Shown here piece after piece: positions 41,715-60,148 of a stretch of 64,000 bases of DNA. The translations under genes and the position numbers were made by a program. Where the stretch lies: assembly GCF_040958095.1 (NCBI RefSeq), contig NC_091219.1, positions 24,740,702 through 24,804,701 on the forward strand. Reading direction: 5' to 3'. The stretch comes from Procambarus clarkii. Lineage: Eukaryota; Arthropoda; Malacostraca; Decapoda; Cambaridae. Each line of letters opens with the position of its first letter. Position 1 is the first letter of the stretch. The notes under the pieces are model-generated. The model was given only the letters and a program-made list of their open reading frames with translations. It did not search any database and was not told the DNA's origin.

Positions 41715-42234
41715 CTGGTCGTACAGCAATATATTAACACACTGCTTTTCCATTATCTTCTTCAATACAAAATTGTCAATATATTCCAGTTTTCTCACAA
41801 CTGTTATTCTTATTTTATATATCAACAAAGGTAATGATGACATACAATATGCGATTAAATAACATTACACAAAAAAATCACATTGATGTATCAATGAGAA
41901 AATCAGTAAGAGCCACAAGGAGGAGTTGAATCTATGCTCTTTGTGTTCCAGAACAAACGCCTTAGATGGTAAAAAAAATGCAACCTGGGATTTAACTGAA
42001 TCATTTATTAAGGTTTCTGAGGCTTCCACTGAAGCCTAATGAGGGTTTAACACACTCACCCCCCCCCCCCCACCCATGCACTCTGGGGCTTTGCAGTCTA
42101 GAAATTCTACCTCCAACGCTTCCAATGCACAAAGAAAATTGTACATATATAAATTTGTGGAATATATTAGTGATTGAGGGAAATGTATGCACTCGATGGC
42201 GAGGGCCTCTACTCGGACCTCTTAGTAGTAACCA

Positions 42235-42485
42235 TCATAGATTGGTTAGTACCAAGAGATTGGTTAGTACCAAGAGATTGGTTAGTACCAAGAGATTGGT
42301 TAGTACCAAGAGATTGGTTAGTACCAAGAAATTGGTTAGTACCAAGAAATTGGTTAGTGCCAAGAGATTGGTTAGTACCAAGAGATTGGTTAGTACCAAG
42401 AGATTGGTTAGTACCAAGAAATTGGTTAGTACCAAGAAATTGGTTAGTGCCAAGAGATTGGTTAGTACCAAGAAATTGGTTATTA
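42235..42485. repeat. 18-bp minisatellite carrying TACTAAC
   Basis: About 14 copies of GATTGGTTAGTACCAAGA (variants GAAATT, GTGCC). In the Dscam sense direction each reads ...TTGGTACTAACCAAT, containing the consensus branchpoint TACTAAC in most units. It begins about 35 bases into the intron after the TM exon. All frames stay open because 18 is a multiple of three. Confidence 0.95.
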
Positions 42486-42519
42486 CTAAACAAAAATGGG
42501 GCCAGAAGAGGATACTGAC

Positions 42520-42672
42520 GCTTCCTGAGGCAGACGCAGACGGTGGTGAGGGTGAGGAGGAGCGCCAGACCCGACACGGCTCCCGGCACCACCACCCGCG
42601 GGTCCCGCCACACCGGACCGCTGGAGGCCTGGCTGCCCCACACGCCCCCGCCCGCGCCCGCACCCGCGCCTC
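42520..42672 (-). CDS. Dscam: Dscam transmembrane exon
   Basis: After a long pyrimidine tract (CTCTCCCCCCCCCAG) in phase 1, the exon codes a Gly/Ala-rich linker (GGAGAGAGGGVWGSQASS), then RDPRVVVPGAVSGLALLLTL TTVCVCL (one hydrophobic helix of about 23 residues, here split by a space) and the basic stop-transfer LRKR. The donor AAGC|GTCAGT at 42519 leaves phase 1, matching the next exon; a nearby GTATCC site would not. Only one TM exon is found, whereas fly Dscam1 has two alternatives. Confidence 0.85.
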
Positions 42673-42780
42673 CTGGGGGGGGGAGAGGGAGCCGTGTAGG
42701 ACGCTGACTGCTGCTGGACACTCATGCTGGCGTAACTATTAACAGTTGCGTGTTAATGGGTGTGGTGAGAGTGGGCGTAC

Positions 42781-42927
42781 CTGTGTGGGCGTAGGCGGGC
42801 GTGGTGACGGTGTACTGGGCGGGCGTGGCTCCAGCAGAGTTGTGGGCGGTGACTCTCAGCTGGTAACGGCCGCCCGCCTCCAGGCCGCCCACAGCGAAGG
42901 TTCGGCTGGGCGGCACCTCACTCCCCA
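42781..42927 (-). CDS. Dscam: Dscam FN3 domain 6, second half
   Basis: Acceptor TTTCCGGCAG, phase 1, 147 bases, donor G|GTACGC. It reads VGSEVPPSRTFAVGGLEAGG, then the F-G strand signature YQLRVTAHNSAGATPAQYTV and TTPAYAHT leading to the membrane linker. The YxLRVTAHNSAG block is typical of the last Dscam FN3 domain. Confidence 0.88.
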
Positions 42928-43197
42928 CTGCCGGAAACACCAGTGTAAACATTATACATTGTTTACATTGGCATTGTTTACATTGGCTTCATCAATTACA
43001 TTGATAACCCCAAGGTAAACACGAGTTTACATTGGGTATATTCTAAGTTTACGTTGAGTTTATACAGGGTTTACATTGAGCTTATACAGGGTTTACACAG
43101 AATTGCATTAGCAAATTTCTTCACGAAAAATGTTCAAGAATTGACTTCAAGTAAGTAATTATCAAACCGGGACTCGCCTGTGGGGGCCAGGAGCGTC

Positions 43198-43260
43198 TCA
43201 CCTGTGGTCCAGGAGCCTCACCCGGGGTCCAGGAGCCTCACCTGTGGTCCAGTGGGCGGT
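43198..43260. repeat. 20-bp triplicate across a splice donor
   Basis: CCTGTGGTCCAGGAGCCTCA-type units begin at 43201, 43221 and 43241. In the sense direction each is TGGACCACAG|GTGAGGCTCC or a variant, so the real donor of the FN6 first exon is followed by two near copies. Confidence 0.85.
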
Positions 43261-43436
43261 GATGTCCCGGCGGTACTGGACGCTGAAGTGGGTGATGGGG
43301 CAGCCGCCGTCGCCCCACTGGGCCAGGTACAGCGTCGCCTGCGAGCTGTTGGTCGTCACGAACTGGAACTGTGGCGGCGCCTCTGGAGGACGACCTTTGG
43401 TGCGGGCCGCTTCCGTCGACGACACCGAACTCGTGC
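43242..43436 (-). CDS. Dscam: Dscam FN3 domain 6, first half
   Basis: Acceptor GGTCGTCTACAG, phase 1, 195 bases, donor ACAG|GTGAGG, phase 1. It contains the linker TSSVSSTEAARTKGRPPEAP, then FVTTNSSQATLYLAQWGDGG and CPITHFSVQYRRDITAHW. The W-x-D-G-G-C-P-I block with its single Cys is diagnostic of Dscam FN3 domain 6. Two decoy copies of the donor follow in the intron. Confidence 0.9.
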
Positions 43437-44049
43437 CTGTAGACGACCGTATACCCGTCCATAACCCGTCTACCACCATATACCTGTCTACCACTATACA
43501 CTCTGCCATAACTCGTCTATCATATACCCATCCATAACCCCTCAATCACCATTTACCCGTTTAATGACAGGTATCTAACAGCCCGTCCTCCTAAACAAAG
43601 CAACTTGTCCTCAGACCACGTCCATTCCATCCAGCGGTCGACCCCAAAAACGCATTCACCAATTTTAACATTATGTTCATTCAAAACAGGAACTTTCTCA
43701 AATATAAATAAATAATGTTATATATTAGTATATTATTCATATTTATCCCGCGTTTCGGTTAGGTTAGGTGTTTAGGATCTGTTGGTGATTATTTGTATTT
43801 GTAGTACGTTGATGAAGCATTTACAGCGTTGTGGTTCGAAAGAGTCGTCAGCGAAGCACTTGTTCCGGAAGTGTTCGGACATCAACAGTTGTGAGTCGTG
43901 TGTAAACCGTTTTTCATTCATAAACAGGGGGTTTGGCGGGTGCATGGAATGGACTTTGGGACTTTGTTTATGAGGACTGGCTGAAGAACAAAAGGTCGTG
44001 GGGGGGGCGAAGAGAGGGGGGGGGAAACGAGAGCTAGAGAGTGGGGAGG

Positions 44050-44150
44050 GTTAGAAGAGCCCATGGCAAGAAGAGGTCAAGGGGAAGAAGAGGTCGAGGG
44101 GAAGAAGAGGTCGAGGGGAAGAAGAGGTCGAGGGGAAGAAGAGAGGGGCA
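44050..44150. repeat. 17-bp minisatellite, about five copies
   Basis: GAAGAAGAGGTCGAGGG repeated directly after the FN5 second-half donor. The donor itself is not included. Confidence 0.85.
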
Positions 44151-44164
44151 GGTGGTGTACTGAC

Positions 44165-44283
44165 CAATGTGGTTGTGGGCAGTGAGGTAGAAGTGGTGTA
44201 GCGTCCCACAGCGGAGATCTCTGGCTGTGTAGGACCGCTGCTCCCCGTCCACCGCTGCTCGAACCCACTCCCCGCCAGCAGAC
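44165..44283 (-). CDS. Dscam: Dscam FN3 domain 5, second half
   Basis: Acceptor TACCGGACAG, phase 2, 119 bases, donor ATTG|GTCAGT, phase 1. It reads SAGGEWVRAAVDGEQRSYTA then RDLRCGTLHHFYLTAHNHI. The L-x-C-G-T-x-Y/H-x-x-Y-x-T-A-x-N block is characteristic of Dscam FN3 domain 5. Confidence 0.9.
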
Positions 44284-44309
44284 CTGTCCGGTACACACAC
44301 ACGTTAAAC

Positions 44310-44580
44310 CCTCTGCTGACACTATGATGGCTTTACTGACACAATGCTGGCACTGTGATGGCCTTACTGACACTATGATGGCCTTACTGACACAATGCTG
44401 GCACTGTGATGGCCTTACTGACACTATGCTGACACTATGATGGCTTTACTGACACAATGCTGGCACTGTGATGGCCTTACTGACACTATGCTGACACTAT
44501 GATGGCTTTACTGACACTATGCTGACACTATGATGGCCTTACTGACACTATGCTGCCACTGTACTGGCACTCAGGATTAT
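44310..44580. repeat. Imperfect tandem repeat TGACACTATGATGGCCTTAC
   Basis: Mixed 15-50 bp units of ACTGACACTATG, CTGACACAATGCTGGCACTG and ATGGCCTTACTGACAC in the FN5 intron. Confidence 0.85.
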
Positions 44581-44765
44581 ACTGTCAATGTACTGGCACC
44601 GTCCAGCATTACAACACAGCGCCACCATAAACAACTTAATATGTCAACACTGGGCTCACTCATCACAATGCCCCAAACACAAGGATCAGTTCAGTGCACG
44701 AACTTCGTACCGTTGTCGAAGCTGGCGACTGTCTGGCGGACGGCAGCGGGGAAGGGAGGACTTGC

Positions 44766-44883
44766 CTGTAGTGGAGGGTGGCTCCCTGGAGGGCGGCGCC
44801 CCCGTTGTCCTCAACACTCCACTGGACCCTGATGGAGGAGGACGTGGTCTCCGTGACGTGCAGTGACGGCGCTGACGGAGGCA
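44766..44883 (-). CDS. Dscam: Dscam FN3 domain 5, first half, with GC donor
   Basis: Acceptor CTCCCCGACAG, phase 1, 118 bases. It reads VPPSAPSLHVTETTSSSIRV, QWSVEDNGGAALQGATLHY. The exon ends TACAG|GCAAGT, a GC-AG donor with an otherwise perfect consensus. Ending there leaves phase 2, exactly what the next exon needs; the only nearby GT (four bases further) leaves phase 0 and fails. The join restores HYRSAGGEW. Confidence 0.88.
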
Positions 44884-45181
44884 CTGTCGGGGAGAGAGGA
44901 CACAAGGTAGTCACATCATAGGTTCACTCCCCACCAGCAGTCGTGATCCAGCGGGAAATAGCACCTAGGACAATGGCCTAGAGTTCTAGTGTGGACGAGA
45001 ATGTAGATCATTGGTCTAGAAGACCGGTACTTCGGGCACCTCCGCATGGGGCCTAAAGCTCAAGGCACCAACCTAATGTGGCCGATCACCCAGAGAATTG
45101 TCTGACGTGAACCCAGAACATTGTCGTAGTAAGTGGGAATTAACTCATGCCCAGGAAAGTTTTATGCTGACCAAATGCAGG

Positions 45182-45360
45182 TTTATTCTGACCCAACATG
45201 GGACCACACTGACCCAACATGGGACCACACTGACCCAACATGGGACCACACTGACCCAACATGGGACCACACTGACCCAACATGGGACCACACTGACCCA
45301 ACACGGGACCACACTGACCCAACATGGAACCACACTGACCCAACATGGGACAACTCCGAC
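45182..45360. repeat. 21-bp minisatellite, about eight copies
   Basis: ACCCAACATGGGACCACACTG in tandem, followed by looser TACACTGACCTACCCTGG units, in the intron after the Ig10 second exon. Confidence 0.92.
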
Positions 45361-45455
45361 CCACCCCAGGGTTACACTGACCTACCCTGGTGGTTACACT
45401 GACCTACCCTGGGGGTTACACTGACCCACCCCGGGTTACACTGAGCTACACTGAC

Positions 45456-45583
45456 CTAGGACGGTGAGGTTGTAGGTGACGGTGTCGCTGCCGTGGTGGT
45501 TGGTGGCAGTGCAGGTGTAGCGGCCGCTGTCAGCTCGCTGGACGTCAGCCAGGGTCAGCGTCCCGTCAGGCTGTACCCGGAAC
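45456..45583 (-). CDS. Dscam: Dscam Ig domain 10, second half
   Basis: Acceptor ATCCTGACAG, phase 2, 128 bases, donor CTAG|GTCAGT, phase 1. It reads FRVQPDGTLTLADVQRADSG then RYTCTATNHHGSDTVTYNL and TVL. The D-x-G-x-Y-x-C motif gives the second Ig cysteine. Position between FN4 and FN5 is specific to the Dscam architecture. Confidence 0.92.
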
Positions 45584-45959
45584 CTGTCAGGATACACGAG
45601 TTGTACACAAGGTCACCACCTGTACACAAGGTCACCACCTGTACACCACACTACGTGCCTAAGGTCACCACCTGTACACAAGGTTTAATGACAAAATTAA
45701 TTACAATTTTGCCTAATCGGAGCAATTCAGTTACATCTTTTTACAGTGAGGATAAGGCTATATTATCGTGGAAGGTAAGTAAATTTTCCTAAGAGCCTCG
45801 AGTGTGAAGTATACTCCTGTTTTGGGGGTTGAGAGATGGTGTATTTCAGGGCGTGAGGAAGACACCTGGATTAACCCCTTTTGGTGGGGGGGGGGGCTAG
45901 GAATGGACCCCCTATCGTAGAAAAAGGGAAGGGGTGGGGGTCGATTATGGGGGACTCAC

Positions 45960-46104
45960 CTGTCGTGGGGGTCCGGGATGGGAGTCTTCTGGTGGGTCCA
46001 GGTTAGTGTGGGCTCCGGTACGCCCACGGCTCCACACGCCAGACTCACGTCCTCCTTCCACGCCGCCGTCACGTTCCCGCCCACCGCCCACACGCCCGCG
46101 GGCA
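45960..46104 (-). CDS. Dscam: Dscam Ig domain 10, first half
   Basis: Acceptor GCCGTCAACAG, phase 1, 145 bases, donor ACAG|GTGAGT, phase 2. It reads VPAGVWAVGGNVTAAWKEDV, SLACGAVGVPEPTLTWTHQK. The first Ig cysteine (LAC) and the core Trp (LTWTHQK) are present. Confidence 0.92.
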
Positions 46105-46904
46105 CTGTTGACGGCAGAGGGGGAAACCTATTGAGGGGAAATAAATATCCGCCCACACGCCCATAGGGACCGCTGGGGATACAGTGGGCGGCTACAGTGG
46201 TCATTTAGCAATACAAGTGAATCAATTAAGAATTGATTATTATAAATAGTTATATATCTTCAGTTACGATATTTAAAAGTATTAGTGCTTTGGAAAGCCT
46301 AAATCTCAGCCTCAATGCTGAGTTGTGTTCCTATCTTGTGTTTGTTTTTGTAGTTTATAATACGGTTAGGCTCTAGCTCCAGGGTTCTCTCCCTTCCCCC
46401 CGCCAACAGTGGATAGTCTAACAAAGCCGGATTCGTCAAGAACTTAACTAAGTACTTACAAGAATTTTAAGCTTGGTCACGAATAACCGGCCCAGTAGGA
46501 GGTGAACCCAAGTACACCTCCACACCAGCTTCCACATGGTTAAGGAAACAATCAATCAACGTTCTTGCTTGGCTCTCTCTCTCAAGATTCTCCAATTGAG
46601 AATTTGTGAAATAGATTTCAAGACGAAAAACAAGTCATCAGAGCACACACACACTGTGAAGGCTGTTCCCTCATATGCAGGCATAAGATGAATGAAAACA
46701 CATTCCTCCTTTATAAGTGTCTGACCCTATTAAAAGACTGTAGAACCTCCTTCACCCCCCTCCCCGATGCTCTATTTACGAAACCCAAAGAAGCGTCAAA
46801 GAAATACTTATTGGAGGGTTTGAACATGTTTAAACTTAAAGGGGTATTAGAAAATATTTTAGTTTTCTCCAATGTTTTCACCAATGTTTAGTTTTTTACG
46901 TCAG

Positions 46905-47030
46905 GCTGCGAGCAGCTGCGTCCAACAGCCTGGTTGATCAGTCCAGCAACCAGGAGGCCTGGTCGACGACCGGGCCGCGGGGACGCTAAGCCCCGGAAGC
47001 ACCTCAAGGTAACCTCAAGGTAATGCAGTG
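46905..47030 (+). repeat. Dispersed decapod repeat (SINE-like tail)
   Basis: GAGCAGCTGCGTCCAACAGC, GAGGCCTGGTCGACGACCGG and the CACCTCAAGGTAACCTCAAG tail; related to the 3' end of the SINE at 23821-23930. Confidence 0.65.
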
Positions 47031-47139
47031 GGAATTACACTTATTCACAAGTACTGAATATTTTCTTACATAGTTTTCAGTTTGTATCTTGTCAAGGATG
47101 TGAAAATATTTGGAGCTATATGTGTGTGTTTAGGTGGGC

Positions 47140-48637
47140 GCGTGGTACGACGACGCGTGCGCGTGTCGACGTACACACGACGACGCGTGCGCGCGTCGAC
47201 GAACACACGACGACGCGTGCGTCGACGAACACACGACGATGCGTGCGTCGACGAACACACGACGACGCGTGCGCGCGTCGACGAACACACGACGACGCGT
47301 GCGCGCGTCGACGAACACACGACGACGCGTGCGCGCGTCGACGAACACACGACGACGCGTGCGCGCGTCGACGAACACACGACGACGCGTGCGTCGACGA
47401 ACACACGACGACGCGTGCGCGCGTCGACGAACACACGACGACGCGTGCGCGCGTCGACGAACACACGACGACGCGTGCGCGCGTCGACGAACACACGACG
47501 ACGCGTGCGCGCGTCGACGAACACACGACGACGCGTGCGCGCGTCGACGAACACACGACGACGCGTGCGCGCGTCGACGAACACACGACGCGTGCGCGCG
47601 TCGACGTACACACGACGACGCGTGCGCGCGTCGACGAACACACGACGACGCGTGCGCGCGTCGACGTACACACGACGACGCGTGCGCGCGTCGACGAACA
47701 CACGACGACGCGTGCGCGCGTCGACGTACACACGACGACGCGTGCGCGCGTCGACGAACACACGACGACGCGTGCGCGCGTCGACGTACACACGACGACG
47801 CGTGCGCGCGTCGACGTACACACGACGACGCGTGCGCGCGTCGACGTACACACGACGACGCGTGCGCGCGTCGACGTACACACGACGACGCGTGCGCGTG
47901 TCGACGTACACACGACGACGCGTGCGCGTGTCGACGTACACACGACGACGCGTGCGCGTGTCGACGTACACACGACGACGCGTGCGCGTGTCGACGTACA
48001 CACGACGACGCGTGCGCGTGTCGACGTACACACGACGACGCGTGCGCGTGTCGACGTACACACGACGACGCGTGCGCGTGTCGACGTACACACGACGACG
48101 CGTGCGCGTGTCGACGTACACACGACGACGCGTGCGCGTGTCGACGTACACACACGTGTGCGCGTGTCGACGTACACACACGTGTGTGCGTGTCGACGTA
48201 CACACGTGTGCTTGTCGACGTACACACGTGTGCGTGTCGACGTACACACGTGTGCGTGTCGACGTACACACGTGTGCGTGTCGACGTACACACGTGTGCG
48301 TGTCGACGTACCCGTGTGCGTGTCGACGTACACACGTGTGCGTGTCGACGTACACACGTGTGCGTGTCGACGTACACACGTGTGCGTGTCGACGTACCCG
48401 TGTGCGTGTCGACGTACCCGTGTGCGTGTCGACGTACCCGTGTGCGTGTCGACGTACCCGTGTGCGTGTCGACGTACCCGTGTGCGTGTCGACGTACCCG
48501 TGTGCGTGTCGACGTACCCGTGTGCGTGTCGACGTACCCGTGTGCGTGTCGACGTACCTGTGTGCGTGTCGACGTACCTGTGTGCGTGTCGACGTACCTG
48601 TGTGCGTGTTGACGTACCTGTGTGCGTGTTGACGTAC
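47140..48637. repeat. Graded minisatellite, 30-bp to 20-bp units, about 1.5 kb
   Basis: From 47140 to about 48150 the unit is 30 bp (CGTCGACGTACACACGACGA plus CGCGTGCGCG) in some 33 copies. From 48150 to 48300 it mixes shorter CACACGTGTGCGTGTCGACG units. From about 48300 to 48637 it is 20 bp (GTGTCGACGTACCCGTGTGC, then TACCTGTGTGC next to the exon). The exon-side copies read, in sense, CACACAG|GTACGTC, the donor of the FN4 second exon. CpG, GTCGAC and ACGCGT are extremely frequent. The 490-550 codon frames in all six readings are artefacts. Confidence 0.95.
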
Positions 48638-48713
48638 CTGTGTGCGTGGGCTTCACCACAGTGACGCTGCTCGACGGACCTTCCCCCATCCTTGTCGACG
48701 CTGTCACCCAGAC
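48638..48713 (-). CDS. Dscam: Dscam FN3 domain 4, second half
   Basis: Acceptor GTTCCTCCGTCAG, phase 0, 76 bases, donor ACAG|GTACGT, phase 1. It reads VWVTASTRMGEGPSSSVTVV then KPTHT. VWVTAST-x-x-GEG is the typical G-strand region of Dscam FN3 domain 4. It directly abuts a 1.5 kb minisatellite whose first units repeat this donor. Confidence 0.9.
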
Positions 48714-48754
48714 CTGACGGAGGAACCTTGTTACTATTTTTGTCGATTACCCGT

Positions 48755-48865
48755 ACACTCACCTAGTCACTCACCTAGTCACTCACCTAGTCACTCACCT
48801 GGTCACTCACCTAGTCACTCACCTGGTCACTCACCTAGTCACTCACCTAGTCTCTCACCTGCACA
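48755..48865. repeat. 12-bp minisatellite carrying GTGAGT
   Basis: About nine copies of TCACTCACCTAG/TGG. In the sense strand each contains TAG|GTGAGT, a consensus 5' splice site, placed just upstream of the FN4 second exon acceptor. Confidence 0.93.
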
Positions 48866-49261
48866 GTTATTCACCCACTTAGAACATCTGCTATTCAAGG
48901 TTAGCATTATGATATTTTAAAGCCTTTTATACCGTCTAATCAGAAGCGTCCTTTGTTAGTTTAAGGATTTATTAACTGGAGGCTCCGCTCACCTACTGTA
49001 GATGCTGACGCGGAAGATCGCATCTTATAGCCAGTCAGATGCGAGGGCACTGGCGAGACCAATTGTGTATTGATCACGACATCAGAGATATCATATTACT
49101 GACCCCCACCTCATTCTCTCACTGACTTTTAGGGGGAACTGGATTTATCAAGCATGTACGAAACCTGTGCATCTTGCCTCAAGCAGGGTCGGTTTTTGTT
49201 TAGATTTATTAAACTGTGTATGAGCTTCGAAATTCTTCGAAATGACTTGCCTCATGACCCC

Positions 49262-49800
49262 ACCTGACCTGGAAGGTCAGGTGGAGGTACTGACCTGGAA
49301 GGTCAGGTGGAGGTACTGACCTGGTGTGTGGTGTGAGGCAGGTCATGGAAGGTCAGGTGGAGGTACTGACCTGGTGTGTGGTGTGAGGCAGGTCATGGAA
49401 GGTCAGGTGGAGGTACTGACCTGGTGTGTGGTGTGGGGCAGGTCATGGAAGGTCAGGTGGAGGTACTGACCTGGTGTGTGGTGTGGGGCAGGTCATGGAA
49501 GGTCAGGTGGGGGTACTGACCTGGTGTGTGGTGTGAGGCAGGTCATGGAAGGTCAGGTGGAGGTACTGACCTGGTGTGTGGTGTGAGGCAGGTCATGGAA
49601 GGTCAGGTGGAGGTACTGACCTGGTGTGTGGTGTGGGGCAGGTCATGGAAGGTCAGGTGGAGGTACTGACCTGGTGTGTGGTGTGGGGCAGGTCATGGAA
49701 GGTCAGGTGGGGGTACTGACCTGGTGTGTGGTGTGAGGCAGGTCATGGAAGGTCAGGTGGAGGTACTGACCTGGTGTGTGGTGTGGGGCAGGTCATGAAG
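49262..49800. repeat. 50-bp minisatellite overlapping an exon end
   Basis: About ten copies of a 50-bp unit. In sense orientation it holds TGACCTGCCTCACACCACAC, ACACCAG and GTCAGTACCTCCACCTGACC: roughly the last 25 bases of the FN4 first exon plus the first 25 of its intron. The copy at 49771-49795 is the exon itself. Confidence 0.95.
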
Positions 49801-49982
49801 GGTGAGGTGGGTGAGGTGGGGCTCCACACGCCGGCTGTGGGGGCCGCCCCGCCCACCAGCCGGCTCCCAGTGCACAGTGTAGCGGCTGATACGCCCATGT
49901 GGGCGTGTGGGCGGCGCCCACGAGATCACGGCCGCCCTTGGACCCGACACCACCGCCTTCACGCGGGCCGGCGCCTCTGGCA
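49771..49982 (-). CDS. Dscam: Dscam FN3 domain 4, first part
   Basis: Acceptor TTGTTCACAG, phase 1, 212 bases, donor CCAG|GTCAGT, phase 0. It reads VPEAPARVKAVVSGPRAAVI, SWAPPTRPHGRISRYTVHWE and LTHLTLHDLPHTTHQ, joining VWVTAST of the next exon. The SWAPP and G-x-I-x-x-Y-x-V blocks mark an FN3 domain. Confidence 0.92.
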
Positions 49983-50033
49983 CTGTGAACAACAACGGAA
50001 TGTACAGAGTGAATATTATTGGCTCCAGGCACC

Positions 50034-50342
50034 TATAGGTAGAGGCACTCGACCCCCTGACCTATAGGTAGAGGCACTCGACCCTCTGACCTGTAGGTAG
50101 AGGCACTCGACCCCCTGACCTGTAGGTAGAGGCACTCGACCCCCTGACCTGTAGGTAGAGGCACTCGACCCCCTGACCTGTAGGTAGAGGCACTCGACCC
50201 TCTGACCTGTAGGTAGAGGCACTCGACCCCCTGACCTGTAGGTAGAGGCACTCGACCCTCTGACCTGTAGGTAGAGGCACTCGACCCTCTGACCTGTAGG
50301 TAGAGGCACTCGACCCTCTGACCTGTAGGTAGAGGCACTCAA
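50034..50342. repeat. 29-bp minisatellite with overlapping 3' and 5' splice-like words
   Basis: About ten copies of CCTGTAGGTAGAGGCACTCG plus ACCCCCTGA. In sense each has CCTCTACCTACAG|GTCAG, which looks like an acceptor followed at once by a donor. It lies 50 bases upstream of the FN4 first exon. Confidence 0.95.
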
Positions 50343-50424
50343 ACTACTGGAAATATTGTCAAACTTTCTCAGCGATAATTAGGAACATTTTGGGTAATAT
50401 TGAACACCAATATTGGTACTGACA

Positions 50425-50812
50425 GTCCTTGGCCGAGGCCGAGCTTACCGTCCTGGCCGAGGCCGAGCTTACCGTCGTGGCCGAGGGCGAGCTTACCGTC
50501 GTGGCCGAGGGCGAGCTTACCGTCCTGGCCGAGGGCGAGCTTACCGTCCTGGCCGAGGGCGAGCTTACCGTCCTGGCCGAGGGCGAGCTTACCGTCCTGG
50601 CCGAGGGCGAGCTTACCGTCCTGGCCGAGGGCGAGCTTACCGTCCTGGCCGAGGGCGAGCTTACCGTCCTGGCCGAGGGCGAGCTTACCGTCCTGGCCGA
50701 GGGCGAGCTTACCGTCCTGGCCGAGGGCGAGCTTACCGTCCTGGCCGAGGGCGAGCTTACCGTCCTGGCCGAGGGCGAGCTTACCGTCCTGGCCGAGGGC
50801 GAGCTTACCGTC
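50425..50812. repeat. 24-bp minisatellite repeating a splice donor
   Basis: About 16 copies of GAGCTTACCGTCCTGGCCGA plus GGGC. In sense the unit is CCAGGACG|GTAAGCTCGCCC, identical at its core to the end of the FN3-domain-3 second exon and its donor. Confidence 0.95.
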
Positions 50813-50964
50813 CTGGTCGGTGGTACAGACGATGGCGTGGGACTGGATGCCTTCGCCTGCCCTGGTGGCGGCGGCGACGGTGAGGGAGTAGTTGGTCCAG
50901 GGGGCGAGTCCCCCCAGGGTGGCCCTCTGGCCCTCCGACACCACGCTGCCACTCCGGCCTCCAC
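50809..50964 (-). CDS. Dscam: Dscam FN3 domain 3, second half
   Basis: Acceptor ATGTGTGCCACAG, phase 1, 156 bases, donor GACG|GTAAGC, phase 1. It reads GGRSGSVVSEGQRATLGGLA, PWTNYSLTVAAATRAGEGIQ and SHAIVCTTDQD. The L-x-P-x-T-x-Y motif and the A-A-T-x-A-G-E-G loop identify FN3. Confidence 0.92.
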
Positions 50965-51175
50965 CTGTGGCACACATGACACCTCGTCAAGCGACCTACC
51001 AACACCTTTAAGGACAACAGTCCCGCTAACATAAGACATTATCAACAATATGCTTCAACACCTTGAGACGCCTCAACCAAGTGACTCTCCCAGTTATGAC
51101 CAGGTATAAGGAAGGGTAATAAAGGAATGAGCGGCGGAGCTCAGTATGACCCAACGAGCTTAGTCAACGGAACTC

Positions 51176-51910
51176 ACCGTGGGAGGAAGGGATTCACCGT
51201 GGGGGGAAGGGGAGGCAGGGGACTCACCGTGGGGGGAAGGGGAGGCAGGGGACTCACCGTGGGGGGAAGGGGAGGCAGGGGACTCACCGTGGGGGGAAGG
51301 GGAGGCAGGGGACTCACCGTGGGGGGAAGGGGAGGCAGGGGACTCACCGTGGGGGGAAGGGGAGGCAGGGGACTCACCGTGGGGGGAAGGGGAGGCAGGG
51401 GACTCACCGTGGGGGAAGGGGACTCACCGTGGGAGGAAGGGGAGGCAGGGGACTCACCGTGGGAGGAAGGGGAGGCAGGGGACTCACCGTGGGGGGAAGG
51501 GGAGGCAGGGGACTCACCGTGGGGGGAAGGGGAGGCAGGGGACTCACCGTGGGGGGAAGGGGAGGCAGGGGACTCACTGTGGGGGGAAGGGGAGGCAGGG
51601 GACTCACCGTGGGGGGAAGGGGAGGCAGGGGACTCACCATGGGGGAAGGGGAGGCAGGGGACTCACCATGGGAGGAAGGGGAGGCAGGGGACTCACCGTG
51701 GGGGGAAGGGGAGGCAGGGGACTCACCGTGGGGGGAAGGGGAGGCAGGGGACTCACCGTGGGGGGAAGGGGAGGCAGGGGACTCACCGTGGGGGGAAGGG
51801 GAGGCAGGGGACTCACCGTGGGGGGAAGGGGAGGCAGGGGACTCACCGTGGGAGGAAGGGGAGGCAGGGGACTCACCGTGGGAGGAAGGGGAGGCAGGGG
51901 ACTCACCGTG
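51176..51910. repeat. 30-bp minisatellite repeating a splice donor
   Basis: About 24 copies of GGGGACTCACCGTGGGGGGA plus AGGGGAGGCA (a few with GGAGGA or shortened). In sense each reads CCCCCCACG|GTGAGTCCCCT, the exact end of the FN3-domain-3 first exon plus its donor. The Gly-rich 270-codon frames are artefacts. Confidence 0.96.
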
Positions 51911-52050
51911 GGGGGAGACGTGAACGTAATAAACACGGTAGTTGATGACGACACCGTTCCTGTGACGTGGGGGGGGCGGCGCCCACGTCACCACCACACT
52001 TGATGACGTCACACTCTCACACGTCACGTGACCAGGCGGCGAACTCGGCT
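51907..52050 (-). CDS. Dscam: Dscam FN3 domain 3, first half
   Basis: Acceptor TTCGTACAG, phase 1, 144 bases, donor CACG|GTGAGT, phase 1. It reads PSSPPGHVTCESVTSSSVVV, TWAPPPPRHRNGVVINYRVY and YVHVSPH. TWAPP and NGVVINYRVYY are FN3 B- and C-strand blocks. The donor is the founder of a 24-copy array. Confidence 0.92.
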
Positions 52051-52354
52051 CTGTACGAACCACACAAAAGAGTTACTAATTAACAATTTAAAAAATTAAT
52101 AATTTCACAAGTCTTGTCCTCAAACTTACTCAGAACTTCCTTCCGTCAGTCAGCAAATAGTTTTAATTGAAAAGAAACTCCGATTTACAAGAAATCCTGT
52201 TGTTATGAAGTAATTTATTATTAACTGATTTATTAAGTCGACTTATTATTAACTGATTCTAGCGATTGTTTCATCCTGTCATTAACCTGATCCAGGTTTG
52301 TTCTGAACCTGTCTCCATTCTCGACAAACTTCCCCTTCACCACAGCCTGCACCA

Positions 52355-52605
52355 CGCAGCCTGCACCACAGCAGCCACACAGCCTGCACCACAGCAGCCA
52401 CACAGCCTGTACCACAGCAGCCACACAGCCTGCACCACAGCAGCCACACGGCCTGCACCACACAGCCTGCACCACAGCAGCCACACAGCCTGCACCACAG
52501 CAGCCACACAGCCTGCACCACAGCAGCCTGCACCACAGCAGCCACACGGCCTGCACCACAGCAGCCACACGGCCTGCACCACACAGCCTGCTCCACACGG
52601 CCTAT
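52355..52605. repeat. Minisatellite of CAGCCTGCACCACAGCAGCCACA
   Basis: About eleven imperfect 23-bp units, starting 25 bases into the intron after the FN2 second exon. No splice word is repeated. Confidence 0.93.
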
Positions 52606-52629
52606 ATCCACCTCACGCCCACAACTCAC

Positions 52630-52808
52630 TGTCCTCCAGCGTGGTGGCGAGGGCGGGCGGGGAGGCGGGTCCGGCGCCCTTGGAGTTGAAGGCCTGAAGG
52701 ACCACGGCGTAGCGGGCGTGCGGGCGGAGGCCGGCCAGGGTGGCGCTGGTCACGCCCACGCCATCCACGCCCACCGTCGTGAAGTTGTACGCCCCGCCCT
52801 CACCCTCG
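52630..52808 (-). CDS. Dscam: Dscam FN3 domain 2, second half
   Basis: Acceptor CTCTCCCGACAG, phase 2, 179 bases, donor GACA|GTGAGT, phase 1. It reads SEGEGGAYNFTTVGVDGVGV, TSATLAGLRPHARYAVVLQA and FNSKGAGPASPPALATTLED. L-x-P-x-x-x-Y and Q-A-F-N-x-x-G-x-G-P are FN3 signatures, and the last is typical of Dscam FN3 domain 2. Confidence 0.92.
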
Positions 52809-53421
52809 CTGTCGGGAGAGGGGAGAGGTGAGCCAGGTGTGAAGGGGAGAGGTGAGCCAGGTGTGAGGGGAGAGGTTTTCAGGTGTGTGTAACCTACACT
52901 TAAAACAATTGAACGATTGTTCCCCAAAAACACCTTTTCTATTTCCAAACCAGTATTTACCCAGGTCTTTCCTCAATGTAACTTACCTAAATGATATCCC
53001 TCGTTAGGTGTTAAATTTTGTGTTGTGGATGTATTTAACACCTTATTAACATCTGCTTTGCTATGCCCTTTCATCCATTATAATTCAATCATATTATTTA
53101 TCGCCTTTCTAGGGAATGTAAAATTTGAATTTTTAGTCCTCTTTATAAGGAATGTTTCTAAGCGAAATTTAAACCAATCTGTAGGAGTTCAAAATTGAAC
53201 TACATAATTTAAACGAGGCTTAATAAGGGCAAGAGAAAACTGAAGAATAATAGACGTCTTATTGCAAACACTTCTAGAAATAAATCTTAGTACCCTAATT
53301 GCTTCATTCCGTACATTTATGATATAATATTCTGGGAGAGTTTGTCACGGGGTTGTACCCAAAGGGTAAGATTTGTTAACCGTTTGAGAGGGAATACAAT
53401 TACCGTGGGAGAGGGGCTCAC

Positions 53422-53528
53422 CTGGCGTCCTTGAAGCCCAGGTAGTAGCCGAGGACCTCTCCGTGGGTGAGGTTGTGGGGTGGGGGGTCCCAGGACACCT
53501 GTAGCGCCGTCGACGACATCGCCAACAC
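53422..53528 (-). CDS. Dscam: Dscam FN3 domain 2, first half
   Basis: Acceptor TATATGACAG, phase 0, 107 bases, donor CCAG|GTGAGC, phase 2. It reads VLAMSSTALQVSWDPPPHNL then THGEVLGYYLGFKDA. The W-D-P-P and GYYLGFK blocks match the Dscam FN3 domain 2 pattern G-Y-Y-x-G-Y/F-K. Confidence 0.92.
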
Positions 53529-53734
53529 CTGTCATATACAGAACACTTGTTACATCAACACCTGCCTGTTACACCTATCCATCTGGACAGCCTGTTATAT
53601 ATGGACATCAGTGTGACGCCTACGTTATTGCACACCTGTAAATCATCAGGGAACCTGTACCCTGCAACGATACCTGTCACTCTTGTTCATCCACATCTGG
53701 TACATCTGTATGCCAATATGCTGCACCTACACTC

Positions 53735-53768
53735 TATCTCACACACACACACACACACACACACACAT
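53735..53768. repeat. (CA)n microsatellite
   Basis: About 13 CA repeats in the FN1-FN2 intron. A second (CA)n run lies at 56258-56280. Confidence 0.95.
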
Positions 53769-54505
53769 TTCCATTATAGATATACGTGTATATCTATCTG
53801 TTCAACATTAGCCCCCAGACACTTGGGGATTTTTTCAGTAAATAATGTTATATAAATGGCCAAAAATGGGCGGATCGGAGTTGCCATTAAATAAAATATG
53901 ATATTGTGCCAATCCTAACCGCCCCTCCCCCCCCCTGTCACTGTGAACTTTTCAGTATCATAAATAGACCCAGAATTATTTTTATTTCTTTTTTCTTCTT
54001 TGTATATTGTAAAACATCATGCAGTGATGGCCACAAAATTCTAAACAAATTATATCATACTTTGCCCCGTAATTAGCAGTAACATGCAAGAGGCGGTGCT
54101 TGGGATGCAGCCCCGGGGGGGGAGGTGATGCTCTTAAGAGTCCGTGTGTTGTGAGAGGAAGAGGGGGGGGGGGAAGAGGAAGGATAACACATCCACTCCT
54201 GACAAACTGTGATGTGGGAGAGAGGGAGAGAGACAGAGAAACAGACAGAAAAAGGCAAACAAAAAGATGGATATAGACAGACAGATATAGAACGAATGTT
54301 CTGACATGCGCTAGAATAGAGTATAAATCTGCATTTATTATCGTTATTTATCATAATATTCTTGAACTTATTTTTAGTGGAGTGATGCCGGGTCGACCCG
54401 AGTACCCGAACGATCCGCTCATTGGATCTACCTGGGCAGCGCTGGGCACCACATCAAGTATATACATAAAGGCAGACGAGGGCAGCGAGAAAGAGATTTA
54501 CTAAC

Positions 54506-54690
54506 AATAACGTTCTGGGGGCTGGCTGACGGGGGCTCCTCCTGCGTGCTGACACGTAGAGGGGCTGACGGCTGACTACGCCCCACACGATTCTCAGCCA
54601 CCAGCGTCAGGGTGTAGGTTGTGGCGGGCAGGAGACCCTCCAGCCGCACCTTCTGCTGCTCCCCCTCCACCGTCACCTCTCGAGGACCAC
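54506..54690 (-). CDS. Dscam: Dscam FN3 domain 1, second half, and linker
   Basis: Acceptor CGTGCTGCAG, phase 1, 185 bases, donor TATT|GTTAGT, phase 0. It reads GGPREVTVEGEQQKVRLEGL, LPATTYTLTLVAENRVGRSQ and PSAPLRVSTQEEPPSASPQN VI. The STQEEPPSASPQN link leads into FN3 domain 2 and closely follows the Dscam T-x-E-E-x-P-S-x-x-P pattern. Confidence 0.92.
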
Positions 54691-54717
54691 CTGCAGCACG
54701 GAACAAAGACAGGGATT

Positions 54718-54850
54718 AAATGAACAAATCCACAAGGGCCGTGACGAGGATTCGAACCTGCGTCCGGGAGCATCCCAGACACTGCCTTAATCGACTGAGC
54801 TACGACAGGGTTCATTTGATGCATCACATTATTGTGATCTCTGGGTGTGG
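54718..54850 (-). mobile_element. tRNA-derived SINE
   Basis: On the - strand CTGTCGTAGCTCAGTCGATT (A box TAGCTCAGTCG) and GCAGGTTCGAATCCTCGTCA (B box GGTTCGAATCC) are followed by the CGGCCCTTGTGGATTTGTTC tail. This tRNA-like SINE is frequent in decapods. The upstream part (ATCACAATAATGTGATGCAT) extends to about 54850. Confidence 0.75.
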
Positions 54851-54879
54851 CAGGGATTAGTCATGGTGCTGGGATTAAC

Positions 54880-56190
54880 TACGTAACCAAATGTGCTTAA
54901 GAAGTACAATAAGTGACATATTTCAAGCAAGGAAGAGGAGAACGGGCTGACTGCATCTTACAAGGCTGCCAGAATGACTTTAATTGTGTACCACCTATAG
55001 GAGGCTTCTACACAAATTCAAAGAATATGTAGTAACGGGAAGAGCTTTGAAATTGGTGTAAGAATACCTGTCAAAAAGAAGGCCTAGTACTTCAGTGAGA
55101 GGGAAGATATCAGGATGGGTAATAGTGAATAGCGTAATGTCTCAAGGAACAGTACTGAGGACGAACCTGTTCCTTCAATGTGCTAATGATCTGACCAAAG
55201 GAAGAAGACTCGTACTTGCGAATGTTGGTAGATGATGCCCAAAAAATTTAACAATAAGACGGTTAAGAAGTGCAGAATACTATATGATGAATTGCCTGAA
55301 CTGCAGGAATGTTCTAAAAGCTGGCTACTTATCTTCAATCAAAGTAAATGCAAGGTGATGAGAGAAGCAGAGGGAAAGATGAGAACAGCAGGCCAGTTCC
55401 CAAAGAAGGGAAGGCAGCTATACTCCACAATAAGGGAAGGTATCTCGAGTACACATTGAACAGAAGGAAGGTCCATTCCACAATAAAGAGAAAATTATAC
55501 GGTCGTAGACAGAGGCTCATGTAAACAGAATAACATCAGCGACATTTGAAAATCTGACACACACCCTTCTAGTTTTCAGGAATTTTGACAAAAAGGCTAA
55601 AAGAGTTTTACACATTATAAATGTTTTGTCATGTGAACCCGGCATGGAGTTCCTATTAGAAAAACAAAAACAAAAAAGCCCGAATTCAGAGACTTGCCAG
55701 ACGACGGGTTCCAGAACAAAGAGGACTGAAAAGAAAAAATAGGACTGAAGGAACTGTAGCTTCTTATTGCATCTCACAAGAGACCGGGAAAATAAGACAT
55801 GATTGCGTCATATAAGATCTTAAGGGGGGTATTGACAAGGCAGGTACAGACGAAATTAAACACGGACACCAGCATAACAAGAGGTCATGCCTGGGAGGCT
55901 AATATATGGCCGAGCCGAAGGAATATATGATGAATGATGTAGAGGCGACATACACGGTGGTCGACGTTGATACGCTACAAAATTGTAAAAAATAAATACA
56001 CGATAGGAATCTAGCGAGTCGGGTGGGATCTGGCCAATGATAATAGAGCAGGAATAAACTGTACTGGAGGGAAAGAAGACGGGGGGTGCCAAGGGACATG
56101 ACTGCGATATGCAAGATTCTTGTGGATCCTGAAAAGTTTAACAAAGACAAAATCATTCATTCTTCCTGACACCAGAATATGGAGTAACAA
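54880..56190 (+). mobile_element. Decayed CR1-like non-LTR retrotransposon
   Basis: Broken + strand frames recall the reverse transcriptase after the catalytic box: VMSQGTVLRTNLFLQCANDLTK (split over frames; compare P-Q-G-S-V-L-G-P-L-L-F), a KLTIRRLRS block, and the C-terminal A-R-R-R-V-P-E-Q-R-like series. Many stops. It lies inside the FN1 intron in antisense to Dscam. Confidence 0.5.
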
Positions 56191-56293
56191 ATTAAATCCT
56201 GAGCTCCCAAATGAGGCCAGTATGGTATAACAAGCAATTGATTTGTAGCAAAGACCAACACACACACACACACACACACACCTATTCACCTAC

Positions 56294-56431
56294 CAGGGGA
56301 CTGCTGGGCGTCGAAGGTGACGAGGTAGGCGGTGATGGGGGCATTGGAGTCCTGGGGGGGCGTCCAGGTGAGTGTGAGGTGACGTGACCCCTCCTCCACC
56401 ACCGTCACTCCAGAGGGGGGGTCAGGCACGT
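56294..56431 (-). CDS. Dscam: Dscam FN3 domain 1, first half
   Basis: Acceptor CCCTCTCCAG, phase 1, 138 bases, donor CCTG|GTAGGT, phase 1. It reads DVPDPPSGVTVVEEGSRHLT then LTWTPPQDSNAPITAYLVTF and DAQQSP. Starting a first FN3 domain with D-V-P-D-P-P right after an Ig domain is typical of Dscam. Confidence 0.92.
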
Positions 56432-56622
56432 CTGGAGAGGGGGGGAAGAAGAGGCACTATAACCAAGCACTCAGACAAGATAACTTCTATGCTTATACGG
56501 GTATAAGTATTATACGGTGGTCTTTACTGTGACCTTAGGACCTGTAAGAATATTAAGACCTTTTAGAAATATTAAGACCTGCAAGAATATTTGACCTGCA
56601 ACAACATAACATTATAACCTGT

Positions 56623-56721
56623 AAGAAATATTAGGACCAGCAGGAACATTAACTGTAAGACTATTAACACCTGTAAGAACATATATTAGGACGTGGGAGC
56701 CACAATAACAATCAATTGTGA
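56623..56721. repeat. Left target-site duplication (99 bp)
   Basis: Matches 58680-58782 apart from a 4-base indel and a few substitutions: AGAAATATTAGGAC at the start and AGGACGTGGGAGCCACAATA then CAATCAATTGTGA at the end. The two copies bracket a retroelement with its poly(A) at 56722. Confidence 0.8.
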
Positions 56722-58679
56722 TTTTTTTTTATATATTTACATGCAAAAGCATGACACATAAATACAATAAAAACAAAAGATAAAGAAACAGACCACTAAC
56801 AAAAGTACAAAGTAACAGAACAAGAAGCCCCAAACCCAACACAAAGACATGAATAACACACAAAGACACAAGTACATAGCAACAAATACACACAGAAAGA
56901 CAATACACGAGGCAGTCCGAAACGGACACCAAATCACCCACACTATACAGTCAATACATATTTACAATAAAACAAAAACCTGAAGGGCTTACAACATATA
57001 CAAGAAATTGGAAGGCCTACACATACTTGTCTGGTAACTCAGCCCTAGGATACCTTATACAATACACCTCTCATACCGCCCAGTCATCCCGGGTAAGGCG
57101 ACCGCCCGGTGGCGGCGTAGGGCACTGCATAAACTCCGGAATATCACAGATGAAACTTTGTACCCACATAGGCGGCGGGTTCACGGGGGCCCAGTGGCAC
57201 TGACAAACGCGCAAGAGGCTGCGGTACAGGGGCCGGAGCCGTCGGGGGCATTAACTCACTTTGCCACTGCACATCGGACCGCAGGGCTAGAGGTACAAGC
57301 ACAGAGCCCAGCCAGCGCACATCCTTCTTGAAGACCACCACTAGGTCACGGGCCTTGCCAGGTACTGCATGAGGGGGCACGGGCTCCCATTCTGGGAGCC
57401 CACAGCAGGGGGCACACAGGAGTCAACACAGAACTCCCATCACCTGCGCCAGCATCCTCCGCATGACCCTCCGCCACATCATCACCAGGTACCGCCACCT
57501 CGCTATCAGAAGACACACAACATGCAAATTCACCCAGTCGGAACTCGCCGAGGGTAAACAAGGCAAAAAACGTATCGCACGCTTAGATCATCGGAACTCT
57601 CCGATGATCATCCGGGCTTCTGTTGGATCATCCGGGCGTAGATCATCGGAACTCTCCACAGCCACAGAATTCGAGACTCGTGAGATGCAGGGAGTCCGAT
57701 CCCTGGCACGCCGCAGGACCTCAGTGGCAGTGACAACACGGGGAATTGGGCCAAGTACAGCAGGAGGCCGCGACTCCCCACACTCCACTGGCACTGTAGG
57801 CAGGTGCGGCGGGCACCACGAGACAAAAGCCCCATGAGCACAGAGCAAAACAGTCGTAGAAGAGGGAAGCAGAGGGAGGCTGACCCATCGCTCCACACCG
57901 GCATGGACAGCACGAACGCAGCCTCAGAACACATATCCGACGACGGCACAGGATTTGGCGCCAGACCCCCATCAGGAGCAGCTGCCCCATCCGACGCACG
58001 GAGACACAGCCTCCAAAGACAGGCCAACAGCCACATCCTCCGAAGCGTCTTCAACAGTTAGCAGAGGAAAATCTTCCTCGCAGAATAAATTCACTCTCTC
58101 TAGGACGCCTGCAGAGCACCCAGCAGCCAGGTGGCCCAACATCTCACAACGATAACACGTCCGGGGCTGCTGGGCATAGAACACACGGATGTAGAACCCC
58201 ACGAGCTTGACAGATGATGGGATGTCCGACTTAAGACGCATTTCAAGGGTGCGGATGCCATTTTGAACGCCTCATAAACGACCGGACAAAATGACATTCA
58301 TCCACACATGCACAACTTAACCAAACTACCCGAAGTACCTCCGCAATATCACTTCGGGGAATTCAATAGGAGCGCAATGAACACTGATGTAGGTCGAAAC
58401 GTCACTGCGGTAGGAGACAACAACCGACCCAGCGTCCGCCCCTCAAACTGGCACAGAAACACTCGGAAATCCTCGTCAGTAGCCAACTTCACTACTACCC
58501 TTTGGGTAGTTAACAGCTCCATCCCACAAACGGCAGCCACATTCAGACCCAGCACATCATACAGCGTCAGCTTTACAGTAAGGTAGTCCACTTTTACTCA
58601 AAACTCCAGTCCAACAGACTGAGTCTGCAACACGGGGGGGTAATGCCCCACCCCCTCCCCCACCATCACAGAGCGCACC
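56722..58679 (-). mobile_element. ORF1-only non-LTR retroelement (copy D)
   Basis: Minus-strand element of about 1.96 kb. The 3' end is the T-run at 56722-56732 (poly(A) in sense). Broken frames give an N-terminal region (VAAVCGMELLTTQRVVVKLA at about 58530), a CCHC knuckle CYRCEMLGHLAAGC at about 58160, a mid part ARDLVVVFKKDVRW at about 57330 and an end ELPDKYV at about 57030. These follow the intact ORF1 of the element at 61.5-63.8 kb. No reverse transcriptase is present between ORF1 and the tail, so it is non-autonomous. Confidence 0.75.
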
Positions 58680-58782
58680 AAGAAATATTAGGACTAGCAG
58701 GTATATTAACTTTAAGACTATTAAGACCTGTAAGAACATATAAATCTTAGGACGTGGGAGCCACAATAACAATCAATTGTGA
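58680..58782. repeat. Right target-site duplication (103 bp)
   Basis: Second copy of the 99-bp block at 56623-56721. Confidence 0.8.
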
Positions 58783-59101
58783 AGTAATCAACAATTGCCA
58801 GAAGTCTTACTCAGGCAGTTGACGCTTGACCCGTGATGAGTTTGTTTATATATAACTCCCAGGGGTCAGTAGACAAGGAATACATCAGTACCGTACCGTG
58901 CACCATAAGCACCGTACCATGCACCATAAGCACCGTACCGTGCACCATAATCACCATACCATACACAACAGACACCGTAATGTGCACATGAACATCGTAC
59001 CATGCACCAAAGACGCAATGCCTCGCACCAAACACACGGTACCATGACCATAAGCACTGTAGACACAGTAACATGCACGATGAGCACCGTGGACACTGTA
59101 C

Positions 59102-59250
59102 CTTGGACGAGGAGGTGGAAGTCGGCTGTGAGGGCGCCGTGGGTGTTGGTGGCGGTACACACATAGGTCCCGGAGTCACTGAGGTGGGACGACCTGACCA
59201 CCAGTTCCGACACCTGGCCCGTCTCCACCTGCCGCTCCGACACCTCGTAC
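59102..59250 (-). CDS. Dscam: Dscam Ig domain 9, C-terminal part
   Basis: Acceptor CCCCCACAG, phase 2, 149 bases, donor CAAG|GTACAG, phase 1. It reads YEVSERQVETGQVSELVVRS then SHLSDSGTYVCTATNTHGAL and TADFHLLVQ. The D-S-G-x-Y-x-C motif gives the second Ig cysteine, and HLLVQ runs into DVPDPPS of FN3 domain 1. The first Ig cysteine must be on an upstream exon beyond 64 kb, so this intron exceeds 4.7 kb. Confidence 0.92.
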
Positions 59251-59352
59251 CTGTGGGGGTACCTGGTGGGTTAGTACCTGGTACCTGTGGGGGTACCTGG
59301 TGGGTTAGTACCTGGTACCTGTGGGGGTACCTGGTGGGTTAGTACCTGATGC
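59251..59352. repeat. 34-bp triplicate of an acceptor region
   Basis: CTGTGGGGGTACCTGGTGGG plus TTAGTACCTGGTAC occurs at 59251, 59285 and 59319. In sense each unit has TACTAAC, then 15 bases later ACCCCCACAG|GTAC, i.e. branchpoint plus 3' splice site of the Ig9 exon. Confidence 0.9.
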
Positions 59353-60148
59353 CTATCGGGGTGCCTGTGGGGTATCTGGTGTGACAGTACCAACATGTAC
59401 GAGTGGTACATGTTGGACACCTGACCGGCTATGACAATATTAGCTTTCACCACTACTACTACTACTTTTTTTCATGTTGATAAAAGAAATATACAAAGTA
59501 TAGCACAATATATACATGACATGAACCTAAGAACAAGAACATAACAACAAAAACATAATCATAAACAGGCATAAAAGAGAACATTACATAACAAGACCCC
59601 AGAAACTCCAGGGACATAAGTCCGTATACAAAATTAAACATAATAATGGACATACAACAAACGGACGCATTACGGACATGGAAAGACACAACAAACATAC
59701 AAAGAATAAACCAGACACACATATATATATATACAAAATGCACACAAGTAATAAATAACACAAAGCATAAGCACATCGCACACAAATCATATAATTAACA
59801 TAAAAACAAACCATGGCCAAGGCCCAGGCACAACTATATGACAACCTCAAGAAAGAATCCGGGGCGAACAATGAAACACAGAGATACACGTACCCTAAAC
59901 AAACACACTACTAGGAAGAACAGCAATCAAACTAACAAAATGAGTAACAAAACAGCCGCATTCAACCCACACAAGACACAAGCAACGGCCCACGCAGGAG
60001 CCAACACAGAAGCAAACCCACACTCACACACAACCCCACACACCAAACCGAACACACAACCACAGGAGCAAACACACACACACACCCAGCACAACCCCCC
60101 CGAGGAGGCCCACCGGAGGGCCGGGGATCTAGGATGAAAACAGACCAC

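Follow-up and report, generated by a model that had tools for sequence, protein, structure and literature searches.

Minisatellite arrays have arisen repeatedly from the 5′ splice sites (donors) of a DSCAM-family gene in the decapod Procambarus clarkii, and arrays of the same form begin at exon ends of unrelated genes in the same genome. The gene lies on the minus strand of a 64,000-nucleotide stretch of DNA (the window, numbered from its first nucleotide), which is part of contig C70 in a genome of 4.03 Gb. At five of its donors, the intron starts with a tandem array whose repeated unit contains the last bases of the preceding exon together with that exon's own donor.

Tandem arrays at the exon ends of a DSCAM-family gene

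In the spliced model, 16 exons (A to P) join in one open frame that encodes 783 aa. A spliced-alignment script with this protein as the query returned identical junctions, apart from a one-base difference at the outermost boundaries of the model, at the first and the last exon. Because the query was built from the same choice of exons, stronger support comes from two paralogs, P1 and P2, which align with the same junctions and phases. The protein is a chain of FN3 and Ig domains that matches the Pfam families fn3 (1.4e-80), I-set (2.6e-26) and PF25059, the DSCAM C-terminal FN3 domain (6.5e-46), and it contains a hydrophobic segment, judged by eye to be a membrane helix; these features place it in the DSCAM family. 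Its top PDB matches are contactins, and Dscam chains are present among the 60 matches listed.

We called arrays with Tandem Repeats Finder (TRF) and measured their reach into each exon against the spliced exon ends (Table 1). A first-pass annotation of the window, made from the sequence alone, had claimed that the exons ending at 51907, 50809, 49771, 48638 and 43242 (F, G, H, I and N) each begin a tandem array carrying their own donor, and the spliced model and TRF both lead to the same result. At all five donors, the first copy of the array is the exon's own end; at exon H, about 40 nt of every unit derive from the exon. With units of 20–50 bp and 3.2–24.9 copies, the five arrays have the tandem units of about 10–100 bp that characterize minisatellites. 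The same annotation had put the number of authentic splice signals at 3 to about 24 per array; exact copies of the junction number 22 at F, 16 at G, 11 at H, 5 at I and 1 at N, so most copies at I and N are variants. Two weaker donor arrays, at exons K and A, were absent from that annotation.

Table 1. Exons, tandem arrays and array-bearing loci elsewhere in the genome. Positions are in the window; counts of exact junction 10-mers include the exon's own copy.
Feature	Position	Strand	Unit and copies	Basis	Details
Exon A	59102..59250	-		spliced frame and spliced alignment	
Exon F	51907..52050	-		spliced frame and spliced alignment; Pfam fn3	FN3 domain; phase-1 donor at low end
Exon G	50809..50964	-		spliced frame and spliced alignment	
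Exon H	49771..49982	-		spliced frame and spliced alignment	
Exon I	48638..48713	-		spliced frame and spliced alignment	
Exon N	43242..43436	-		spliced frame and spliced alignment	
Exon F donor array	51181..51916	-	30 bp x 24.9	TRF	CACG|GTGAGT; 10 nt into exon; 22 exact 10-mer copies
Exon G donor array	50425..50816	-	24 bp x 16.3	TRF	GACG|GTAAGC; 8 nt into exon; 16 exact copies
Exon H donor array	49296..49810	-	50 bp x 10.3	TRF	40 nt into exon; 11 exact donor copies
Exon I donor array	48184..48648	-	20 bp x 22.5	TRF	ACAG|GTACGT; 11 nt into exon; 5 exact copies, others variants
Array next to that of exon I	47147..48206	-	30 bp x 36.1	TRF	similar unit; appears from its sequence to continue exon I array
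Exon N donor array	43187..43252	-	20 bp x 3.2	TRF	11 nt into exon; 1 exact copy, further copies variants
Exon K array	45358..45453	-	22 bp	TRF	begins 2 nt past donor (exon end 45456); unit has TAGGTCAGTGTA
Exon A donor array	59034..59114	-	30 bp x 2.7	TRF	degenerate; spans donor
Exon A acceptor (59250) array	59242..59371	-	34 bp x 3.9	TRF	unit includes TACTAAC, C-rich tract and CAG
L036, peroxidase exon end				Pfam An_peroxidase, 6.6e-8	15 nt of exon end repeated
L042, 7TM receptor exon end				Pfam 7tm_1, 1.8e-7	3 nt of exon end repeated
L043, PDZ gene exon end				Pfam PDZ, 7.4e-8	18 nt of exon end repeated
L048, probable exon, C-type lectin				one PDB match, E=0.045; no Pfam match	20 nt of exon end repeated
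L046, probable exon				open frame without a family	9 nt of exon end repeated

Polarity and independence of the arrays

The paralogs give the arrays a direction. P1 lies about 78 kb from the window gene in inverted orientation, with a protein identity of 99.4%; over 2349 nt of exon sequence the two differ at 22 positions, and 11 of 516 four-fold sites have changed (2.1%). P1 could be either a duplicated gene or the second haplotype. P1 and the window have the arrays F, G, I and N in common with changed copy numbers: array I has 22.5 copies in the window versus 6.4 in P1, and at exon H there are 11 exact donor copies versus 1. Copy number therefore varies between close copies of the gene, as in minisatellites, be P1 allelic or duplicated.

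P2, located 1.3 Mb away, is more diverged, with a protein identity of 88.3% and differences at 121 of 336 four-fold sites (counted in exons other than J/K, C and G). It has introns at matching positions and in matching phase after exons F, G, H, I and N, none of them with a long array, and the coding sequence at the ends of exons F, G, I and N is identical or almost so, ahead of introns free of these four arrays. Because P2 keeps the exon ends without the arrays, the exon is the source of the array. P2 exon H is followed by a degenerate extra copy, and the donor of P2 exon A has a 16/21-bp array of its own, in which the copy holding the exon end was recognized by eye; its tie to the exon end was read from the sequence because TRF places the beginning of the array 17 nt beyond the donor, and the score in the junction scan is 14/20, below its cut of 16 of 20. 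The third paralog, C55, has 42.7% identity in an alignment from which six short pieces were dropped as unreliable, and at 1 of its 11 accepted exons a 46-bp array of 13.5 copies begins 21 nt inside the exon and crosses the donor. The arrays thus arose from junctions in several separate events, and the first-pass proposal of independent events, as opposed to one spreading repeat, is borne out by the missing four arrays and the separate exon A array of P2 and by the different array of C55.

These comparisons bear on two other explanations. The first is that the introns themselves were gained by tandem duplication, a model described in the available part of a paper on potato (PMC4974935), and the units do hold AG|GT or a similar junction. 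A gained intron would be absent from a relative without the duplication, however, and P2 has all five introns in the same place and phase, with identical or nearly identical coding sequence at its exon ends; we give this explanation almost no credence. The second is that the arrays were collapsed or inflated during assembly, or that the locus was a chance choice. The inverted, nearly identical P1 and other near-identical gene pairs make a haplotype duplication conceivable, but units differ in sequence and copy number between the two copies and arrays of the same form occur on other contigs, making an artefact very improbable.

Excess over chance at donors

Since arrays grow after they are founded, a fair null model places the founding unit in the intron and collapses each array to a single event. 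By this measure, 6 of 25 intronic arrays in the window cross a donor when 1.21 are expected (P=7.5e-4), or 6 of 23 versus 1.17 with a TRF score of at least 50 (P=0.0005). In P1, the donors hold 4 of 23 arrays (0.99 expected, P=0.014), and in P2 one of seven (0.10 expected), the counted array being the degenerate one at H and not that at exon A. Across the window, P2 and C55 together, 8 of 56 arrays cross a donor, compared to 1.54 expected within the same intron (P=6.7e-5), 0.97 when placed in the whole gene without matching GC content (P=3e-6), and 1.85 or 2.07 when placed in the whole gene with GC content matched within 0.10 or 0.05 (P=2-5e-4). We conclude that donors carry a moderate excess of arrays over chance.

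No such excess is seen at acceptors. In the 15 window introns tested, which do not include that of the exon A acceptor, none of the 25 arrays crosses an acceptor, and none of the 56 pooled arrays does so within the introns tested (0.97-2.64 expected; the exon A acceptor array lies outside these introns). Seven window arrays end within 50 nt before an acceptor without crossing it, compared to 2.87 expected (P=0.016). The first-pass annotation had placed the exon A acceptor at 59250 within a repeat, and it does lie in an array of 3.9 copies whose unit appears to carry a whole 3′ splice site, with TACTAAC as the putative branch point.

Donor arrays across the genome

We counted genome-wide matches to a triple pattern, the donor motif CAGGTGAGT occurring three times with gaps of 7–37 nt. 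There are 12677 such triples versus 2984 for the reversed motif, a 4.2-fold enrichment, and a second donor 9-mer, CAGGTAAGA, gives 1891 versus 416 (4.5-fold). An acceptor-like motif, TTTYCACAG, is not enriched (496 versus 1733 reversed). The scrambled motif CAGTGGAGT yields 1746 triples, and because the control counts vary, the enrichment of the 12677 triples spans 2 to 7 fold. Single occurrences number 57423 for CAGGTGAGT and 130973 for its reverse, so that the ratio of triples to singles is 22% versus 2.3%. A broader pattern, AGGTRAGT three times (49229 versus 9004), was set aside because many of the listed places are telomere-like AGGTAAGTTAGGTT repeats or a dispersed AGGTGAGTACAAT element; this element, with its AGGTGAGTACAAT repeats, contributes many donor-like copies genome-wide.

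Counting by hand among the matches listed (C1, and C2 to 49.08 Mb), we found 15 distinct donor-motif arrays versus 2 scramble arrays. The 15 were 18 before near-identical copies elsewhere were merged, and a cluster at C1 58.10-58.13 Mb was counted once.

The 15 CAGGTGAGT arrays, three more from the AGGTRAGT list and 7 scramble controls were then inspected as individual loci. The start of the array is visible in 15 of the 18 donor-motif loci, the sequences of L045, L047 and L053 falling short of it. At 3 of the 18 loci, the first copy forms the end of a Pfam-confirmed exon, belonging to peroxidase, 7TM receptor and PDZ genes, and two further loci have probable exons (Table 1); all five are among the 15 distinct CAGGTGAGT arrays. 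Extrapolated to the whole genome, CAGGTGAGT alone would yield roughly 100-180 exon-end arrays. The Pfam scan covered the donor-motif loci other than L039, L040, L045, L047, L050, L051 and L053, and the longest open segments of the eight other or uncertain loci had no match (for L048, the frame of this segment differs from that of the lectin reading). On inspection, L051 and L052 contain no recognizable exon, and L041 resembles what we take to be the tail of a dispersed repeat and not an exon. None of the 7 scramble controls was found at an exon end, with five peptides from four loci scanned and two loci largely inside repeats. A unit that holds the host exon's own donor, with the exon end as its first copy, is found at the five window donors, in C55 and at L036, L042 and L043. 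Donor arrays are not specific to the DSCAM-family gene, and the link that the first-pass annotation had drawn to a gene known for complex splicing is not supported.

Origin of the arrays

The reading that we favour, with middling confidence, is a recurrent and mostly neutral birth of minisatellites at donors, tolerated as long as the first donor remains functional in sequence. The array would be founded when a short stretch spanning the 5′ splice site is duplicated in tandem, and slippage or unequal exchange would expand it. Such a duplication can be tolerated because it leaves the donor next to the exon where it was and puts the extra copy of the exon tail into the intron, while the same duplication within an exon or across an acceptor would alter the mRNA. 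The spliceosome normally uses the first AG downstream of the branch point. With tolerance at donors only, arrays should extend across donors but end before they reach an acceptor, and the repetition of a whole 3′ splice site module in the exon A acceptor array fits the constraint at acceptors. We infer both this filter of selection and the neutrality of the arrays.

Several observations weigh against this reading. When arrays are placed within the same intron and GC content is matched within 0.10, the expected number of pooled donor crossings rises to 3.22 (P=0.0056), and the depletion at acceptors is not significant by itself (P 0.05-0.37). Two of the eight crossing events are degenerate (window A and P2 H), and the H seed is common to the window and P2, leaving at most 7 separate events. 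The window locus was picked as striking; the two other paralogs by themselves have 2 of 33 arrays at donors versus 0.35 expected. The first-pass annotation had proposed a repeat-finder test for enrichment, and in the introns of the gene and its paralogs donor arrays do exceed chance by position, but not by coverage: repeats cover 31.8% of the positions sampled in the intron interior (517 of 1626) and a similar share of the donors (5 of 16). In the genome-wide counts, the reverse of the scramble, TGAGGTGAC, has 6240 matches. Finally, tolerance alone leaves the excess over the intron interior unexplained. The GC-rich exon edges explain part of this excess (GC content is 0.68 in exons and 0.51 in introns), and the remainder may come from a mutational bias linked to donors.

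Such a bias could be the principal cause, if the founding duplications are provoked at donors by nicks, by R-loops formed during transcription or by a non-template strand rich in G. The donor excess that survives GC matching is in its favour, as is the contrast between the triples-to-singles ratios of the donor motif and its reverse together with the lack of enrichment of the acceptor motif. The GC-matched excess, however, is just 2.5-4 fold over 8 events, single matches to the reversed motif are unusually numerous, perhaps through a dispersed repeat, and selection against acceptor duplications could give the same asymmetry; we consider donors as mutational hotspots unlikely. It is likewise doubtful that minisatellites throughout the genome of this lineage spring specifically from donors, through mutation tied to the donor by transcription or R-loops, with many minisatellites elsewhere being donor relics. 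Among the 17 arrays in the window that lie clear of any junction, AGGT has no sense bias (6 sense, 4 antisense).

Alternatively, the arrays could be used, with spare donors buffering donor mutations or tuning the speed of splicing, or with the repeats adding in-frame protein sequence. The coding frame runs from exons F, G and I into their arrays for 167, 146 and 502 aa until a stop, and the window introns contain 68 donor-like sites at least as strong as the median real donor on the sense strand versus 11 on the antisense strand; the available part of a paper on human IFI6 also says that two downstream repeat units are employed as donors. Past the donors of exons H, K and N, by contrast, the frame stops within 5-14 aa, and units of 20 and 50 bp shift it, so that use in protein is possible for some arrays and unlikely for others. 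P2 manages without the arrays (5 sense versus 8 antisense sites) and copy number drifts freely, and we regard use as improbable.

The origins of minisatellites are poorly known, and arrays that start from a defined, strand-oriented signal represent separate founding events. The contrast between donors and acceptors is a natural separation of mutation from selection, and a series of many equal donors amounts to a natural test of spliceosomal choice between 5′ splice sites that do not differ in sequence. Donor arrays can also mislead gene annotation.

Relation to known systems

The first-pass annotation had known of no described system of this form, and a precedent does exist in human IFI6 (6-16, G1P3), in which a minisatellite reportedly gives multiple splice donors in an interferon-induced transcript (Turri et al. 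1995). According to the available part of a later paper, two downstream repeat units serve as donors (PMC4526556). IFI6 and the present arrays are alike in having minisatellite units that supply multiple splice donors; as far as that part goes, IFI6 is one gene with reported transcripts, whereas here several unrelated units occur in one gene family, with arrays in other genes of the same genome. Human segmental-duplication genes, in the available part of their description, have internal tandem repeats, some at exon-intron boundaries, which were proposed to form novel introns (PMC2812944). These too are minisatellites with units of about 30 bp and with variation among paralogs of recent origin, but half of the variable ones are coding and those at boundaries would lead to novel introns, while here an older intron received an array from its donor. 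The potato case, in the part available, is intron gain through a duplication crossing a junction (PMC4974935). It resembles ours in the tandem duplication across an intron-exon boundary, and differs in that here there is no new intron, there are many copies instead of two, and the donor side is affected instead of the acceptor side. No genome-wide survey of donor minisatellites was found in the openly licensed literature that was searched. The kind of array is known, and its recurrence in one gene family and across the genes of one genome seems new within the literature searched.

Other features of the window and its paralogs

The array at 47147-48206 is about 1 kb long and CG-rich, contains GTCGAC-type palindromes, and together with array I makes up the 502-aa open frame from the exon I donor. 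At window 44764-44766 (minus strand), exon L has a GC donor (ACAG|GCAAGT) that is the same in P1, and the P2 junction there is GTAAGT. A J-K intron (window 45584-45959, minus strand) is present in the window and P1, and the corresponding sequence is a single exon in P2 (26114468-26114740) and in the C55 alignment (18301253-18300884), a hint that the lineage of the window gained this intron. Pairs of nearly identical genes at distances of 0.1-3.3 Mb (C70 24708571-24724075, and also on C1, C25, C27, C41 and C92) are possibly unmerged haplotypes in the assembly. An Rfam search of window 42000-59500 at gathering thresholds gave no match. The intron that follows exon P has, close to its beginning, an 18-bp array of 13.8 copies (window 42239-42486, minus strand; 5.8 copies in P1) with a unit that includes TACTAAC, which we take to be the branch-point consensus. 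A satellite-like array of 16.2 copies of a 168-bp unit occupies window 30557-33268.

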